Below, in pieces: positions 4,948 to 39,015 of a DNA stretch of 39,395 nt. Source of the DNA: Sulfurihydrogenibium sp. (lineage in GTDB: Bacteria; Aquificota; Aquificia; Aquificales; Hydrogenothermaceae); assembly GCF_028276765.1 (NCBI RefSeq), contig NZ_JAPYVU010000011.1:1-39395 (forward strand), given 5' to 3'. A program made the position numbers and the translations under genes. Every line of letters begins with the position of its first letter. The first letter of the stretch is position 1. Under the pieces are notes generated by a model. It searched no databases. It was not told where the DNA came from and worked only from the letters and a program-made list of their open reading frames with translations.

Positions 4948-4961
4948 GATTGAAAGTAATA

Positions 4962-5108
4962 ACTTAGGCAAGAAATTAATGGTTTTTATAGAATTAAAAA
5001 AGAAGATTCTTCTGGTTTACGTTCTCAGAGATGACAGAAACCCTGTTAATACTGTCATTCTTATCGTAGCAAAGAATCTCGTACTTTTATTAAATTTCTT
5101 ACCGAAGT
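4962..5108. mobile_element. Family A MITE-like element with target duplication at the pabC end
   Basis: The left end ACTTAGGCAAGAAATTAA and the inverted right end AACACTTCGGTAAGAAATTT are degraded versions of the family A termini. After the left end comes the shared GGTTTTTATAGAATT segment. The core GAGATGACAG / CTGTCATTCTTA...AGAATCTC is present. It is flanked by a direct repeat: 4927-4948 and 5109-5130 agree at 20 of 22 positions. There is no coding capacity, so any movement must have used a transposase encoded elsewhere. Confidence 0.7.
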
Positions 5109-5173
5109 GTTAAAGAGATTAATATATGAGCCGAATTATTTGTAGGTAAAAACTTATTAGGGAGTTAGAAAGC

Positions 5174-9039: not shown

Positions 9040-9217
9040 AAGTCGGGTGAGAAATTCGTTAAAAGCATAGGATTCTTCGCCGGCCGTAGAATGACAAATA
9101 GGGTTGCACTGGTCAAGTATATAATTATCAAGTTTTCTTCGTCATCTTGAGGTCATAAGGCCGAAGGATATCCTTTTAAATTCTATAAAAACCGCCGATT
9201 TCTCATCCCCCCAAGGC
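9040..9217. mobile_element. Family A MITE-like element between ftrB and yicC
   Basis: The left end AAGTCGGGTGAGAAATTCG and the inverted right end CTTGGGGGGATGAGAAATC are recognisable family A termini; the right one has a four-base insertion. The interior has GGATTCTTCGCCGG...AGAATGAC and the opposing GTCATCTTGAGG...AAGGATATC. No clean target duplication is visible: the flanks (9022-9039 and 9218-9235) share only a gapped ATAAxTAxCTTA. The right end nearly touches the yicC stop. Confidence 0.65.
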
Positions 9218-9225
9218 ATAATTAC

Positions 9226-10089
9226 TTACTCAATGTTTTGAACTTGCTGTCTTATTTTTTCAAGTTCTGTTTTCATTTCTACGGTAAATTTGCTAAAATC
9301 AGGCATTTTGTTTCCAAGCGTGTTTATTTCCCTAAGCATCTCTTGACACATAAAATCAAGCTTCCTACCTATTGGCTCGTTTAGATTCAGTAGCTCTCTA
9401 AATCTTTGGATATGAGTTTTTAGTCTTACAACCTCTTCTGTTATATCAAGCTTATCAGCTAATAAAGTAGCTTCAATAAATGCTCTTTCAGAATAGTTTT
9501 CTCCAAGAAGTTGTTTAACTTTTTGATAAACTTTTTCTTTTACACTTTCTAAAACTTTCTCTTTTTTCTCTTCAATTTCTTTCAACATCTCTTCAATCTT
9601 ATTTAATCTACATTCTATATCTAATATTAAAGATTTTCCTTCTCTTTTTCTTTCTTCTTTCAAAGTGTTTAAAGCTTCTTTTACAGCATTTAGAATGTTT
9701 TCTTTAAGTGTATCATCAAGCTCTTCCTCTACGTTATTATTATTCATTATCATTCCGATTGTAACTTCGTAAAGTTTATCGTCTGAAAGGTTGATGTTTG
9801 CTTGTTTAGTTATCTCTCTGACTACGTTAACATACTGAGTAAGTTTTTCAGGCTCTACGATAAATTTTGGTGTTAGAGAATTTATATTTATGTAAAGCTG
9901 AAAGCTTCCCCTTTCAAAATACTGTTGAACTAACTTTCTTATCTCAAGGTCTAAATACATCAAAACGTTTTTATCACCTTTGATAGAGATATCGATTGAT
10001 TTATTGTTTAGACTTTTTACTTTTATGTTTATTTCATAATCATCAAACGCTTTTTTTACAAATGCAAAACCTGTCATACTATATGGCAT
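9226..10089 (-). CDS. yicC: YicC family endoribonuclease
   Basis: A 287-aa member of the YicC/YloC family, which has been characterised as an endoribonuclease acting on small RNAs in enterobacteria. The hallmark N-terminus MPYSMTGFAFVKK and the conserved C-terminal block KLDFMCQEMLREINTLGNKMPD are both present; the middle is strongly charged coiled-coil-like helix (KIEEMLKEIEEKKEKVLESVKEKVYQKV). Full length. It follows the transporter gene by 12 bases on the same strand and is likely the last gene of a waaA-mbfA-yicC transcript. Confidence 0.88.
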   Translation of the reverse strand: MPYSMTGFAFVKKAFDDYEINIKVKSLNNKSIDISIKGDKNVLMYLDLEIRKLVQQYFERGSFQLYININSLTPKFIVEPEKLTQYVNVVREITKQANINLSDDKLYEVTIGMIMNNNNVEEELDDTLKENILNAVKEALNTLKEERKREGKSLILDIECRLNKIEEMLKEIEEKKEKVLESVKEKVYQKVKQLLGENYSERAFIEATLLADKLDITEEVVRLKTHIQRFRELLNLNEPIGRKLDFMCQEMLREINTLGNKMPDFSKFTVEMKTELEKIRQQVQNIE

Positions 10090-21019: not shown

Positions 21020-21178
21020 ACCTTGGAGGTAAAGGGTTAGCGTTTTTTATGGAATTTAAAAAGAATGACGATAACAGTCAAAGATTGAATAGTAAGCATA
21101 AGGTAAAGGTTAATCTTGTTTGTCGTTGTGAAGTCATGTGAAGGATCTCATACTCCTATTGAATTTCTCACCCGGCGT
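21020..21178. mobile_element. Family A MITE-like element beside the relict CRISPR leader
   Basis: The left end ACCTTGGAGGTAAAGGG continues as TTAGCGTTTTTTATGGAATTT, corresponding to GGTTTTTATAGAATTT in other copies. The right end GAATTTCTCACCCGGCGT is nearly canonical. The core is decayed (AGAATGACGATAACAG). The flanks 20999-21019 and 21179-21199 agree at about 14 of 21 positions, weakly supporting an old target duplication. It lies only about 37 bp upstream of the leader tail of the solo CRISPR repeat. Confidence 0.6.
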
Positions 21179-22244: not shown

Positions 22245-22322
22245 AGTTGTTCTAAAAATCCACGCTGTCATTCTGCAGCCGGCGAAGAATCTCATATTTT
22301 TATTGAATTTCTCACCCGACGT
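22245..22322. repeat. Chimeric repeat: family B-like left, family A right end
   Basis: TTGTTCTAAAAATCCACGC resembles the end of family B, then GTCATTCTGCAGCC...GAATCTCAT is the shared core, and the right terminus GAATTTCTCACCCGACGT is family A. The two families therefore appear joined at the shared core, either by recombination or by nested insertion and deletion. Confidence 0.6.
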
Positions 22323-25063: not shown

Positions 25064-25126
25064 AGTGGTTGCTCCTTTTTAACTATTTATCAAATTCTCA
25101 ATATCGCTATAAAAATTCTCTAATAC

Positions 25127-25190
25127 GTTAGGTGAGAAATTCAATAAAAGTAAGAGATTCTTCGCTTTGTTCAGAACAACAAATAATGCT
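25127..25190. repeat. Family A left end (partial copy)
   Basis: ACGTTAGGTGAGAAATTC continues as AATAAAAGTAAGAGATTCTTCG and a decayed TTCAGAACAACA, where AGAATGACA is expected. A possible right end (TTAGGTGGAATATATTC on the minus strand, 25253-25237) overlaps the frameshifted reading frame at 25199-25343 and is not convincing. Confidence 0.55.
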
Positions 25191-26867: not shown

Positions 26868-27356
26868 GACTGTTCCAAAATTATTTTCTCAGTTAAAATT
26901 AAATACACAAAATTAAAAATGGAATGTTTGCATGAGAAAAACAAGAATATCTTTTAAACAAATCTATAAACTTACAAAAAGATTTTTTAGAAATTTATAA
27001 TAGCTATACACGTCGGGTGAGAAATTCAATAAAGTAGGAGATTCTTAACCGGCTACAGAATGACGCTATTTGATCTTTTTTGTCATCATGAACGAAGTGA
27101 AGGATCTCATTTTTTTATGTTTTTTGAAAAGAAATAAAAAGAGGAGATTCTTCGCTTCGCTCAGAATGACGGTGTGGATTTTTGGAACAGTCTCTACATC
27201 TGCTGAGGATATTCCAAAATTTTTGTAAACCTATCTTTCCGTGTCATCCTGAGGACTAAGGCTGAAGGATCTCTTTTTTGATTTTCGACTTGAAAAGAAA
27301 AATAGGAGATTCTTCGTCGAATGCAGAATGACGATGTGGATTTTTGGAACAGTTTC
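26868..27356. repeat. Mosaic of family A and B repeats
   Basis: A family B left end GACTGTTCCAAAATTATTTT starts at the rfbD stop. At 27010 a full family A left end (ACGTCGGGTGAGAAATTCA) begins. The core GAATGACGC and GTCATCATGAACG...GGATCTC follow, then GAGATTCTTCGC...AGAATGACGG with a B right end TTTTTGGAACAGTC near 27193. A second, nearly complete B element runs from about 27215 (ATATTCCAAAATTTTTG) to about 27354 (TTTTTGGAACAGTT). A 22-codon open piece at 26933-27001 (MRKTRISFKQIYKLTKRFF) is unrecognised. No gene is supported. Confidence 0.65.
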
Positions 27357-33141: not shown

Positions 33142-34482
33142 ATGAACAGCAGACAGTATGCAGAAAGCATTGCAAAAAAAGCAAAAAGTACGGTGAGGAA
33201 ATTATCGTCATTAACTACAAAAATAAAAAATGATGCTTTACTAAGGACAGCAGAATTGCTATTAGAAAGAAAAAGTCAAATCATAGAAGAAAATAAAAAA
33301 GATTTAGAACTTGCTGAAAAGAAAGGATATTCAAAAGCTCTGCTTGATAGGCTCGCTTTAGATGATAAAAGAATAAATCAGATGGTTCAGGTTTTAAAAG
33401 ACGTTGCAGCATTGCCAGACCCGGTAGGTGAGATAATCAACATGTGGACAAGACCAAACGGATTAAAAGTTGGTCAAATGAGAGTGCCGCTTGGAGTAAT
33501 CTTGATTATATACGAAGCAAGACCAAACGTTACAATAGAAGCTGCGTCTCTTTGTATGAAATCTTCAAACGCAGTAATTTTAAAAGGTGGAAGTGAAACA
33601 ATCAATTCAAACAGAATATTGGTTGATATAATCAAACAAGCTTGCAGAGAGACTTGCTTTCCGGAGGAAGCAGTCCAGTTTGTAGATACAACAGATAGGG
33701 AAGTTGTAAACCATCTATTGAAGCTTGAAGGATTAATAGATGTGGCAATTCCAAGAGGTGGTGAAAGCTTAATCAGAGCAGTGGCAGAAAATTCAAAAAT
33801 CCCAGTAATCAAACATTATAAAGGTGTTTGTAATCTTTATGTTGATGATGAAGCAGACATGGAAAAGGCTTTAAACATTGCTTACAATGCAAAGGTACAA
33901 AGACCATCTGTATGTAATGCTATAGAAAATCTTGTAGTTCATAGAAAAATTGCAGATAAATTCCTACCGGAGATTGCCTACTACTTCGGAAAAGCAGGCG
34001 TTGAAATGAGATGTGATGAATACAGCTATAATCTGCTTATAAACCATCCAAAAGCAAAAGATACAGAAATAGTTCCGGCAAAAGAAGAAGATTATTACGA
34101 AGAGTTTTTAGACTTGATAATTGCTGTAAAAGTAGTAGATAGCTTAGATGAGGCAATAGACTTTATAGAAAAGTATGGTTCTCACCACTCGGACGCAATA
34201 GTTACAGAAAACTATACAAAAGGAATGAGGTTTATCCAAGAAGTAGACAGTGCAGCTGTTTATATCAATGCATCTACAAGATTTACAGATGGTAATGAGT
34301 TTGGGCTTGGTGCAGAGATGGGAATTTCAACTGACAAAATTCATGCAAGAGGACCAATGGCATTAAAAGAGTTAACTATTCCTAAATTCATAGTGTTTGG
34401 AAATGGCCAGCTTAGAGAAAATGTAGGAATACCAAAAGATGAAAGTGAAATAAAGATAGATACAAACGCATGTAATTTGTAA
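33142..34482 (+). CDS. proA: Gamma-glutamyl phosphate reductase
   Basis: A 446-aa NADPH-dependent enzyme of proline synthesis, reducing glutamyl-5-phosphate to the semialdehyde. The catalytic cysteine is C258 in the block RPSVCNAIENLVVH. Other conserved parts are VPLGVILIIYEARPNVTIEAASLC, LKGGSE, IPRGGESLI, HYKGVCNLYVD and ASTRFTDGNEFGLGAEMGIS. The length is close to the usual 415-430, with a short C-terminal extension. The RBS AAGGAG is well placed. The stop codon overlaps the ATG of the next gene (TAATG), coupling the two. Confidence 0.93.
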   Translation: MNSRQYAESIAKKAKSTVRKLSSLTTKIKNDALLRTAELLLERKSQIIEENKKDLELAEKKGYSKALLDRLALDDKRINQMVQVLKDVAALPDPVGEIINMWTRPNGLKVGQMRVPLGVILIIYEARPNVTIEAASLCMKSSNAVILKGGSETINSNRILVDIIKQACRETCFPEEAVQFVDTTDREVVNHLLKLEGLIDVAIPRGGESLIRAVAENSKIPVIKHYKGVCNLYVDDEADMEKALNIAYNAKVQRPSVCNAIENLVVHRKIADKFLPEIAYYFGKAGVEMRCDEYSYNLLINHPKAKDTEIVPAKEEDYYEEFLDLIIAVKVVDSLDEAIDFIEKYGSHHSDAIVTENYTKGMRFIQEVDSAAVYINASTRFTDGNEFGLGAEMGISTDKIHARGPMALKELTIPKFIVFGNGQLRENVGIPKDESEIKIDTNACNL

Positions 34483-35486
34483 TGTCAAAACAGATATTTG
34501 ATATAACGGTTAGAGATGTATTAAAAGACCCAATCTTAAAACTTATTGAGAGATTAGTAGGTAAAAAGATTGTAAGAAGCTTAGATATTTCTCTACCGTC
34601 TATAAAAGAAAGAAAAGTAGATATTTTATTGGAAGCAGAAGATAGAAGTTTAATTCATATAGAGCTACAATCAACAAACCATAAATATATGCACTATAGA
34701 ATGCTTGAATACAGACTTGAAATAACAAGGAAGTTTAAAACAAACAATATTATCCAATTTGTCATTTACTTAGGTGAGAAAAAATGTACAATGAAATCCG
34801 AAATATCGGAAAAAGATTTAATTTATAGATACAACTTGATTGACATAAAACAAATACCATGTCAGGATATTATAAAAGAAGATGATATAGACTCAATCGT
34901 TTTAGGTTTTTTGTGTAATCTAAAAAACAAAGAAAAACTTTTAGAAAAATTAAAAATTAAATTATCAACATTAGATGATGTAAAAAGAGCTGATTGGATT
35001 AGAGGAATATTGCTAATTCTTGGACTGAGACCTAAATTGAAAAAAGAATTTCAAAGATTGATAGATAGGGAGGAAATAAAAATGCCAATAACCATAAGAA
35101 TAAGAAGGGACTTAATAGAAGATTTGCCGGTGATCGGAGACCTACTAAGAGAAGCTGAAAGAGAAGCTATTGAGAAGGGAGTTGAAAAAGGTTTAAAAAA
35201 AGGTTTAAAAAAAGGTTTAAAAGAAGGTTTGCAAAAAGGCATGCAGAAAGGAATCAAAGAAGGCTTACAAAAAGGATTGCAGGAAGGATTACAGAAAGGT
35301 CTACAAGAAGGCATCGTTAAAGCAAAACAAGAAGATATAATTAAAGTGTTAGAGGCAAAATTTGGAAAATTAAGTAAAACAGTTAACAGTAAAATCAAGA
35401 AAATAAACGATCTAAATAAATTAGAAGCTTTACTTTTAGAAGCTGTAAAATCTGAGAGTTTAGAAGAGTTTAAAACAAAATTATAA
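34482..35486 (+). CDS. Rpn-like PD-(D/E)XK nuclease with tetrapeptide repeat tract
   Basis: A 334-aa protein of the Rpn/'transposase_31' superfamily. Nuclease core residues are visible: D in KVDILLEAED, then E and Q in LIHIELQST (the D-x-ExQ form of PD-(D/E)XK), with a conserved YRLEITRKF helix. Residues 231-278 are twelve copies of a four-residue unit (for example EKGL, KKGL, QKGM, QEGL), encoded by degenerate 12-bp repeats with three nearly identical adjacent copies. Known Rpn proteins have RecA-independent recombination-promoting DNase activity. Translation is coupled to proA (TAATG), an odd place for such a gene. panB follows 14 bases later. Confidence 0.8.
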   Translation: MSKQIFDITVRDVLKDPILKLIERLVGKKIVRSLDISLPSIKERKVDILLEAEDRSLIHIELQSTNHKYMHYRMLEYRLEITRKFKTNNIIQFVIYLGEKKCTMKSEISEKDLIYRYNLIDIKQIPCQDIIKEDDIDSIVLGFLCNLKNKEKLLEKLKIKLSTLDDVKRADWIRGILLILGLRPKLKKEFQRLIDREEIKMPITIRIRRDLIEDLPVIGDLLREAEREAIEKGVEKGLKKGLKKGLKEGLQKGMQKGIKEGLQKGLQEGLQKGLQEGIVKAKQEDIIKVLEAKFGKLSKTVNSKIKKINDLNKLEALLLEAVKSESLEEFKTKL

Positions 35487-36887: not shown

Positions 36888-37092
36888 TCGTTTGGTAAGA
36901 AATTCAGCAAGGGCAGAGATTTTTCGTATGGCCACAGGATGACACTATTCAGAAGATTTTCGTTATCTGTAGCAAGTAAGCAAAAGTAGTATAAAAGTGT
37001 TAATTGCTGAAACCATTTATGAATCACTATACATAGAAAGTGTTTCAAAAATCACGTCGTCATTGCAAGCAAAGTGAAGAATCTCCTGTTTT
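36888..37092. repeat. Degenerate repeat debris between tsaC and ridA
   Basis: A worn family A left end CGTTTGGTAAGAAATTCAGC (36890-36909), core piece AGAGATTTTTCG...AGGATGACAC, and further right GTGTTTCAAAAATCAC with GTCATTGCAAGCAAAGTGAAG, AATCTCC, which resembles family B. No intact element and no gene are seen. Confidence 0.5.
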
Positions 37093-37499: not shown

Positions 37500-38222
37500 T
37501 TAAATCTCCTTGAGATTTATTTTTCCTTCATATATAGCTTTGCCAACGACTACACCAAAAATTCCAAACTCTCTTTTTTCATAAAGCTTGATCACATCTT
37601 CTAAACTGCCAACGCCACCTGATGCAATAACCGGATGTTTTAGATTTTTTGCAAGTTCAACTGTTACTTCAACGTTTGCTCCTATCATCACTCCATCTCT
37701 GCTTACATCTGTAAATAAAAATCCAAATATATCTAAATCATCATATTTTTTAGCAAATTCTAATGGCGAAACTTCTGTTTTTTCTGTCCAGCCTTTAATG
37801 GCAACCTTTCCGTCTTTTGCATCTATTCCAACAATTACTTTACTTGGAAAGCTTTCAACTATTTTATAAAACTCCTCCGGATTTTGATAAGCCAAGCTAC
37901 CAATTACAACCCTTTCAACGCCTAAATCTAAAACAGCTTTAACAGCCTCAAAACTTCTAAGTCCCCCGCCAAACTCTATTGGAATATTAACAGACCTAAC
38001 AATACTCTCTAAGATTTTTATGTTTTTTGGCAGTCCTTCTAATGCACCGTCTAAATCTACAACGTGAATATGCTTAGCTCCTGCATCTTCAAAATATTTT
38101 GCCATATCGACAGGATTTTCATTATAAATCTTTACTTTATCAAACTCACCTTTATAAAGCCTTACAACTTTTCCATCTTTTATATCAATAGCCGGAATGA
38201 TAAACTCTTTTAATATCATCAA
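37500..38222 (-). CDS. hisA: ProFAR isomerase (histidine biosynthesis)
   Basis: A 240-aa TIM-barrel enzyme catalysing the Amadori rearrangement in histidine synthesis. Catalytic Asp in [18 protein letters not shown], second Asp in [14 protein letters not shown], and phosphate loops FGGGLRS and [11 protein letters not shown] are visible. There are two adjacent ATGs; the outer one (38222) is preferred, with GGAG six bases upstream. The RBS region is present twice because a 173-bp repeat element has inserted just upstream, carrying away the promoter-side copy; the natural promoter is likely beyond 38454. No other his genes are adjacent. Confidence 0.93.
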
Positions 38223-38454
38223 ATACTCCTACTTACTCTATATGTTAAAATACCTTGGGTGAGAAATTAATGGTTTTTATAATTTAAATAGGAGATCCTT
38301 TGGCCTACGAGCCCAGGATGACAGGAAAAGGTTGATTGATAAGTGTTAAAGGAAGGACAACCTTATTCGTCATTCTGCAGCCGGCGAAGAATCTCATACT
38401 CTTATTTAATTTCTCACCCGACGTAATACTCCTACTTACTCTATATGTTAAAAT
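38222..38454. mobile_element. Family A MITE-like element with a perfect 30-bp flanking duplication
   Basis: The element spans 38252-38424 (173 bp). Its left end ACCTTGGGTGAGAAATTAA and inverted right end ACGTCGGGTGAGAAATTAA agree at 17 of 19 bases. It is flanked by an identical 30-bp direct repeat (38222-38251 and 38425-38454) that begins AATACTCCTAC and ends ATGTTAAAAT. The duplicated bases include the hisA RBS, showing they are host sequence. The interior has the two opposed cores (GGATGACAG and GTCATTCTGCAG). No ORF is present. The identity suggests a recent insertion. Confidence 0.88.
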
Positions 38455-38522: not shown

Positions 38523-38612
38523 AATCTGTCATTTTGAAGCCGGTAAAAAGATCCTTCGCTTGTACAAGCCTCAGGATAACAGTGTTGATTTTTAAAACAC
38601 TTTCAAAATATA
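38523..38612. repeat. Family B-like fragment
   Basis: CTGTCATTTTGAAGCC...AAGATCCTTCGC and CCTCAGGATAACAGTG, followed by TTGATTTTTAAAACACTTTC, resemble one B unit with both termini eroded. It lies just beyond the broken amt gene end. No gene is visible between 38455 and 38630. Confidence 0.5.
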
Positions 38613-38942: not shown

Positions 38943-39015
38943 ACCTTGGCTGAGAAATTATCGGTTTTTATAGAATTTAAAAAAAGAGATCCTTCGGACT
39001 TACGTCCTTAGGATG
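38943..39015. repeat. Family A left half, cut at the IS110 junction
   Basis: ACCTTGGCTGAGAAATTATC continues with GGTTTTTATAGAATTT, then GAGATCCTTCGGACTTACG and CCTTAGGATG. It stops exactly before the A of the core ATGAC. The IS110 remnant starts at 39016. The right half of the element is missing. Confidence 0.75.

Follow-up and report, generated by a model that had tools for sequence, protein, structure and literature searches.

A MITE with a 30-bp target-site duplication upstream of hisA in Sulfurihydrogenibium, and its IS982-related insertion sequence family with long, probably promoter-centred duplications

In bacterial DDE transposases, the stagger is usually fixed and short. Long, variable duplications are best known from two elements, IS1549 and IS1634, whose direct repeats (DRs) of 8–514 bp have no proposed mechanism ("no mechanistic model"), and the IS1634 family is composed of elements of 1.5–2 kb that encode IS4-related transposases and have C as the first base of their ends (PMC2266710). 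An earlier note on the locus described here had placed very long duplications mainly in this group, but they also occur in the IS1202 group, with target-site duplications (TSDs) of 16–28 bp (PMC10132070), and, going by the values quoted in PMC7335449, in IS1182, with DRs of 2–60 bp. The IS1202 features, as described for the ISAjo2 group, are a length of about 1.5 kb, a TnsB-like transposase of 441–457 amino acids, and TGT ends (PMC10132070). The elements of the IS982 family are 845–1282 bp long, with ends that start with AC and DRs of 2–10 bp (PMC7335449, Fayad et al. 2020). Bacterial MITEs are short, non-coding, and present in many copies, with a TSD and inverted ends in common with an autonomous insertion sequence (IS) (reviewed in PMC10969869).

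The locus lies in a stretch of 39,395 nucleotides of Sulfurihydrogenibium sp. (the window), which is contig C11 of the draft assembly of its own genome (G000; 84 contigs, 1.75 Mb). The target gene, hisA, is an open reading frame on the minus strand (37500–38222, ATG at 38219–38217), with orthologues in all seven genomes of the genus that were searched. Upstream of its start codon is a non-autonomous element of 173 bp (38252–38424, plus strand), with terminal inverted repeats, ACCTTGGGTGAGAAATTAA at 38252–38270 and, as read on the minus strand, ACGTCGGGTGAGAAATTAA at 38406–38424, that match at 17 of 19 positions, or at 18 of 20 by the repeat finder, which counts one extra base. The element is bracketed by a hisA-proximal segment of 30 bp (38222–38251) and a distal one (38425–38454), which are identical at 30/30 positions, and the hisA RBS (AGGAG, the complement of 38226–38230), six bases 5' of the ATG, is included in the duplicated segment. 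Both the element and the perfect duplication had been recognized in the earlier note, and both were confirmed here.

The empty-site comparison proposed in that note was provided by G005, a genome in which hisA is 96% identical. At the corresponding place, G005 has the 30-bp segment once, not twice, and lacks the element, with the site reading tcatca-AATACTCCTTATTACTAGATATGTTAAAAT-TTTATCATAG, which indicates that the duplication at hisA was made by the insertion. Judged from this comparison, the 30-bp repeat is a genuine TSD. The view that it was a pre-existing tandem duplication upstream of hisA, or is independent of the element, can be practically discounted, given that no supporting point was found, that the single copy of G005 refutes it, and that the pattern is repeated at dozens of unrelated loci.

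The element forms one long imperfect hairpin, for which RNA folding of 38252–38424 gave an MFE of −53.3 kcal/mol (z −3.5), and this hairpin may be present within the hisA leader; the search of Rfam with the 173-bp element returned no match. The interior of the MITE (38275–38400) is made up of two REP-like hairpins, of the ATCCTTCGGCC..GGCCTCAGGAT and GTCATTCTGCAGCCGGCGAAGAATC types, which are also found outside MITEs, for example, just downstream, at approximately 38530–38590. Elsewhere in the window (34482–35486), a reading frame between proA-like and panB-like genes resembles, by eye, the Rpn/PDDEXK family of recombination-promoting nucleases.

The 173-bp element has 45 BLAST places in G000, with approximately 40 copies, and the 17-bp end motif, at no more than two mismatches, has 200 matches in this genome, in comparison with none for the reversed control. 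In the flanks of the copies, whose direct repeats the earlier note had proposed to measure, a DR of 25–38 bp was found at 11 of the 32 paired copies (perfect in seven of the 11), and at none of 2976 swapped-flank pairs, so the long DR of the hisA type is far beyond chance. Around two thirds of the copies have no detectable DR, and these are mostly diverged, which suggests that their DRs were lost through decay. The MITE at locus L004 has a 36-bp TSD, which is present as a single segment in G004 and G005, where the left flanks differ. For two further copies, the empty-site search recovered only other repeats with the flanks of L002, and left the left flank of L008 unmatched.

The hisA element thus resembles the bacterial MITEs in that it is short and non-coding, with inverted ends, many dispersed copies, a TSD proven by the empty site in G005, and ends in common with an autonomous element in G000 (ACCTCGGGTGAGAAATTC / ACGTCGGGTGAGAAATTA). 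Its family is unlike the typical bacterial MITEs (PMC10969869) in the length of the duplication and its centring on promoters. The same end motif is found elsewhere in the window, in complete, decayed, or solo form, at 9040–9236, 4961–5109, and 38943–38959, with single copies at 21162–21178, 22306–22322, 25125–25141, 27010–27026, and 36888–36904. Four further loci (L010, L011, L015, and L022) are half-MITEs joined at GATGACAGG to the end of another repeat (GTATATTAAATATACCAAAAATTTTTAAACTTTAAGAGAATAAGT), and are possibly the ends of another element or hybrid products of transposition.

An IS of full size that shares the ends of the MITE, which the earlier note had suggested looking for, is present, intact in the genomes G003, G006, and G031, and split at the contig ends in G000. 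The autonomous members are 963–966 bp long, have the same terminal sequence of approximately 17 bp as the MITE (family end motif ACSTYGGGTGAGAAATT), and encode one DDE-type transposase of 278–283 amino acids. In G000, a second type of end, ACCTCGGGTGAGAAATTCAAATATAAAT, leads into the transposase reading frame (MQNSNLYFTIFQK...), and the opposite end is ACGTCGGGTGAGAAATTACCTCCATAG. No intact, full-length transposase gene was found in the G000 assembly, where the copies are decayed or broken at the ends of contigs, and many contigs stop approximately 105 bp inside an IS end, as expected of a collapsed repeat. When the contig ends of these split copies were paired through their outer flanks, six left-end/right-end pairs were joined by perfect TSDs of 28, 24, 25, 30, 26, and 29 bp. 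The contig ends joined in this way (L220–L255) are C28–C73, C47–C29, C60–C69, C74–C72, C78–C18, and C28–C61, and TSD matches that bridge the collapsed copies can be used to scaffold the draft.

The intact copies have repeats of the same kind, with perfect DRs of 24, 26, and 33 bp in G003 (IS of 964 bp), 25, 27, and 32 bp in G006 (963 bp), and 23–38 bp in G031 (966 bp, approximately 20 copies), while the TSD of the G066 IS is 27 bp long, with one mismatch. A TSD of at least 23 bp is present in 13/21 of the G031 copies, 3/4 of those in G003, and 3/3 in G006, versus 3/1260, 0/36, and 0/18 of the swapped-flank pairs, respectively, and the three exceptions in G031 are recombined copies with exchanged flanks. 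Eight of the 21 G031 copies have no recognizable DR, and some of these match each other's flanks (L099/L123 and L089/L100), so recombination between copies explains the absence of the DR in part; two copies in G081 have exchanged flanks in the same way (L215/L216). Over all the measured TSDs (n = 37, five genomes), which are mostly perfect, the length is 23–38 bp, with a mean of 28.5 bp. As measured in these assemblies, the length of the TSD varies from copy to copy for both MITE and IS, which means that the family of short elements anticipated in the earlier note stands, with a variable duplication in place of one of about 30 bp.

The edges of the TSDs follow the pattern M|(A/G)T on each strand, with every 3' end that is joined to the target placed at such a site on its own strand, and the TSD thus runs M|RT...AY|K. 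At the edges of 30 TSDs, with the joined target base as position 1, A occupies position 1 in 82% of cases and T occupies position 2 in 90%, while position −1 is A in 73% in G000 and C in 85% in G031. The terminus falls on the AT of the start codon of the downstream gene in five of 13 G031 TSDs. These edges bear on the proposal that the repeats arise through a replicative or repair route, such as template switching, or unequal exchange between neighbouring insertions, rather than through staggered strand transfer. The copy-to-copy differences in TSD length would be compatible with this route, as would the exchange seen in the pairs of copies named above, and the variable DRs of IS1549 and IS1634 likewise lack a proposed mechanism (PMC2266710). 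However, the same M|RT edges recur on both sides of the TSD at 37 sites, spread over five genomes, which points instead to ends made by the transposase, and the minimum of 23 bp and narrow range are unlike random repair, so this route is improbable.

The GC content of the TSDs is 11–19%, about half that of their loci or less (19% vs. 41% in G031, and 17% vs. 32% in G000). The hexamer TATAAT, on either strand, is present in 18 of 30 TSDs, mostly no more than 5 bp from the centre, where mononucleotide shuffles predict 6.1 ± 2.2 and dinucleotide shuffles 8.1 ± 2.3, with none of the 2000 shuffles of either type reaching 18. This hexamer had first been spotted by eye, and was therefore re-tested on flanks not used before, in which it was present in the adjacent 30 bp in 8/16, 7/28, and 9/31 cases, and in none of the 75 windows located 30–60 bp away in all three sets. 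The TSD of the hisA copy has no exact TATAAT. The orientation of the IS in relation to the downstream gene had seemed to be biased in G031, a candidate that was rejected when all copies were counted and the orientations proved to be mixed.

The centring on the −10 box might reflect survivorship alone, in which insertions into genes have been lost, the remaining gaps are so short and AT-rich that whatever inserts there overlaps the promoter, and the transposase merely favours AT-rich DNA with RT steps. The short, AT-rich edge motif is consistent with this, as are the GC content of only 16–23% in the adjacent 30 bp and the lack of a clear bias in how the −10 box and the IS are oriented to each other, and survivorship is given a substantial chance here, albeit one somewhat short of even. 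It accounts poorly for the excess over shuffles that preserve the dinucleotides of the same TSDs, and for the concentration of the hexamer near the TSD centre, with zero occurrences one window further out (30–60 bp) in each of the held-out sets. Real targeting, in which the insertions land preferentially on promoters, is likely rather than proven, and short intergenic regions and the survival of harmless insertions may contribute to the −10 enrichment. The transposase with widely separated cuts that the earlier note had called for fits these data, with putative cuts at M|(A/G)T and a duplicated stretch typically centred on a −10 box.

Three residues of the transposase are invariant (D117, D218, and E243 in the numbering of the G003 protein), and are assigned by alignment as the putative catalytic triad, D-100-D-24-E, with a short spacing between the second D and the E. 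The best NCBIfam match of the full-length relatives is IS982 (NF033520), with 48.2 bits (E = 1e-12), and another member scores 27.9 bits, both below the cut-off of 130 bits for this family. The alignment with the classical IS982 transposases of the phylum by hhalign has a probability of 97.4% (E 1.5e-11, 18% identity), and the long-TSD transposases are split from classical IS982 in the tree with full support. Based on these comparisons, this DDE transposase is a distant relative of IS982 and is not IS1634-like, so the comparison group named in the earlier note was not upheld. The transposase fragments of G000 have only weak matches to IS4/IS5/DDE_Tnp_1 in Pfam and NCBIfam, and the IS1182 profile of NCBIfam gives a sub-threshold match. 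The PDB gave no match by sequence, and a fold search with an alignment-based AF2 model of moderate quality (pLDDT 72.5) retrieved RNase-H-like transposases (Mos1 and Tn5) at non-significant levels; neither this model nor its fold matches revealed a structural basis for the wide stagger.

The family shares with IS982 the length of approximately 1 kb (963–966 bp), one DDE transposase of some 280–290 amino acids, ends that start with AC (ACG/ACC), and homology at the profile level. It differs in its TSDs of 23–38 bp, against the tabulated 2–10 bp (PMC7335449), in the much shorter D2-E segment, in forming a separate clade, and in scoring 48 bits, below the NCBIfam cut-off of 130 bits. Classical IS982 copies that score above the cut-off coexist in G003 (L204–L209), with DRs of 5, 9, 10, 13, and 15 bp, a range (5–15 bp) that is also wider than that tabulated (PMC7335449), and the long-TSD group looks like an extreme of flexible spacing rather than unrelated chemistry. 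Long, variable DRs are shared with IS1549 and IS1634, although the range here is narrower than 8–514 bp, and membership of that group was rejected on the basis of the length of 963–966 bp and the AC ends, in contrast with 1.5–2 kb and a terminal C. Unusually long TSDs are shared with the IS1202 group, for which no link to promoters has been reported, and membership was again rejected, given the length of 963–966 bp, the protein of 278–283 amino acids, and the AC ends. The searchable literature, which does not extend to ISfinder, contained no report of this Aquificota group, of promoter-centred TSDs, or of long, variable TSDs in IS982-like elements, and a member that is registered but unpublished is possible.

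The family is present in 33 of 136 Aquificota genomes. Outside this phylum, it was found in just two MAG contigs (L138 and L139, labelled Omnitrophota and Aenigmatarchaeota), in which the flanks of the IS, itself the same, are identical, and which are probably a misbinned contig of one organism.

Taken from genome sequences, through which alone transposition is known here, the evidence makes it very probable that the hisA element is a MITE of an IS982-related IS family largely confined to Aquificota, with TSDs of 23–38 bp produced by a long stagger at promoter-centred M|RT sites. The MITE would be mobilized in trans by the transposase of the IS, and the two transposon ends would attack opposite strands of the target, each at an M|RT site of its own choice. 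The 5' stagger of 23–38 nt would be long and variable because these sites flank an easily melted promoter, and would be easiest to make in AT-rich promoter DNA that has become melted or distorted, whether spontaneously or by RNA polymerase. Gap repair would then copy the promoter and leader onto both sides of the element. At hisA, a complete RBS adjoins the gene and a second copy lies beyond the MITE, and insertions of this type would be nearly harmless, because the duplication of the promoter and RBS leaves the gene its own RBS beside the start codon. A more specific version, in which the target of the transposase is the −10 region as melted in the RNA polymerase open complex, with the ends attacking the separated strands that flank the bubble, is speculative and rather unlikely. 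If true, it would explain both the variable duplication of 23–38 bp and the preserved expression of the host gene, given that every insertion would duplicate the promoter.

The family is compact, with one protein of approximately 280 amino acids and ends of approximately 17 bp, as well as being multicopy and thermophilic, and a sister group with duplications of 5–15 bp is found in the same genus, so that its mechanism lends itself to direct tests in vitro and with chimeras. The centring on promoters suggests a route by which a mobile element may settle upstream of genes that the host needs and yet leave them active.
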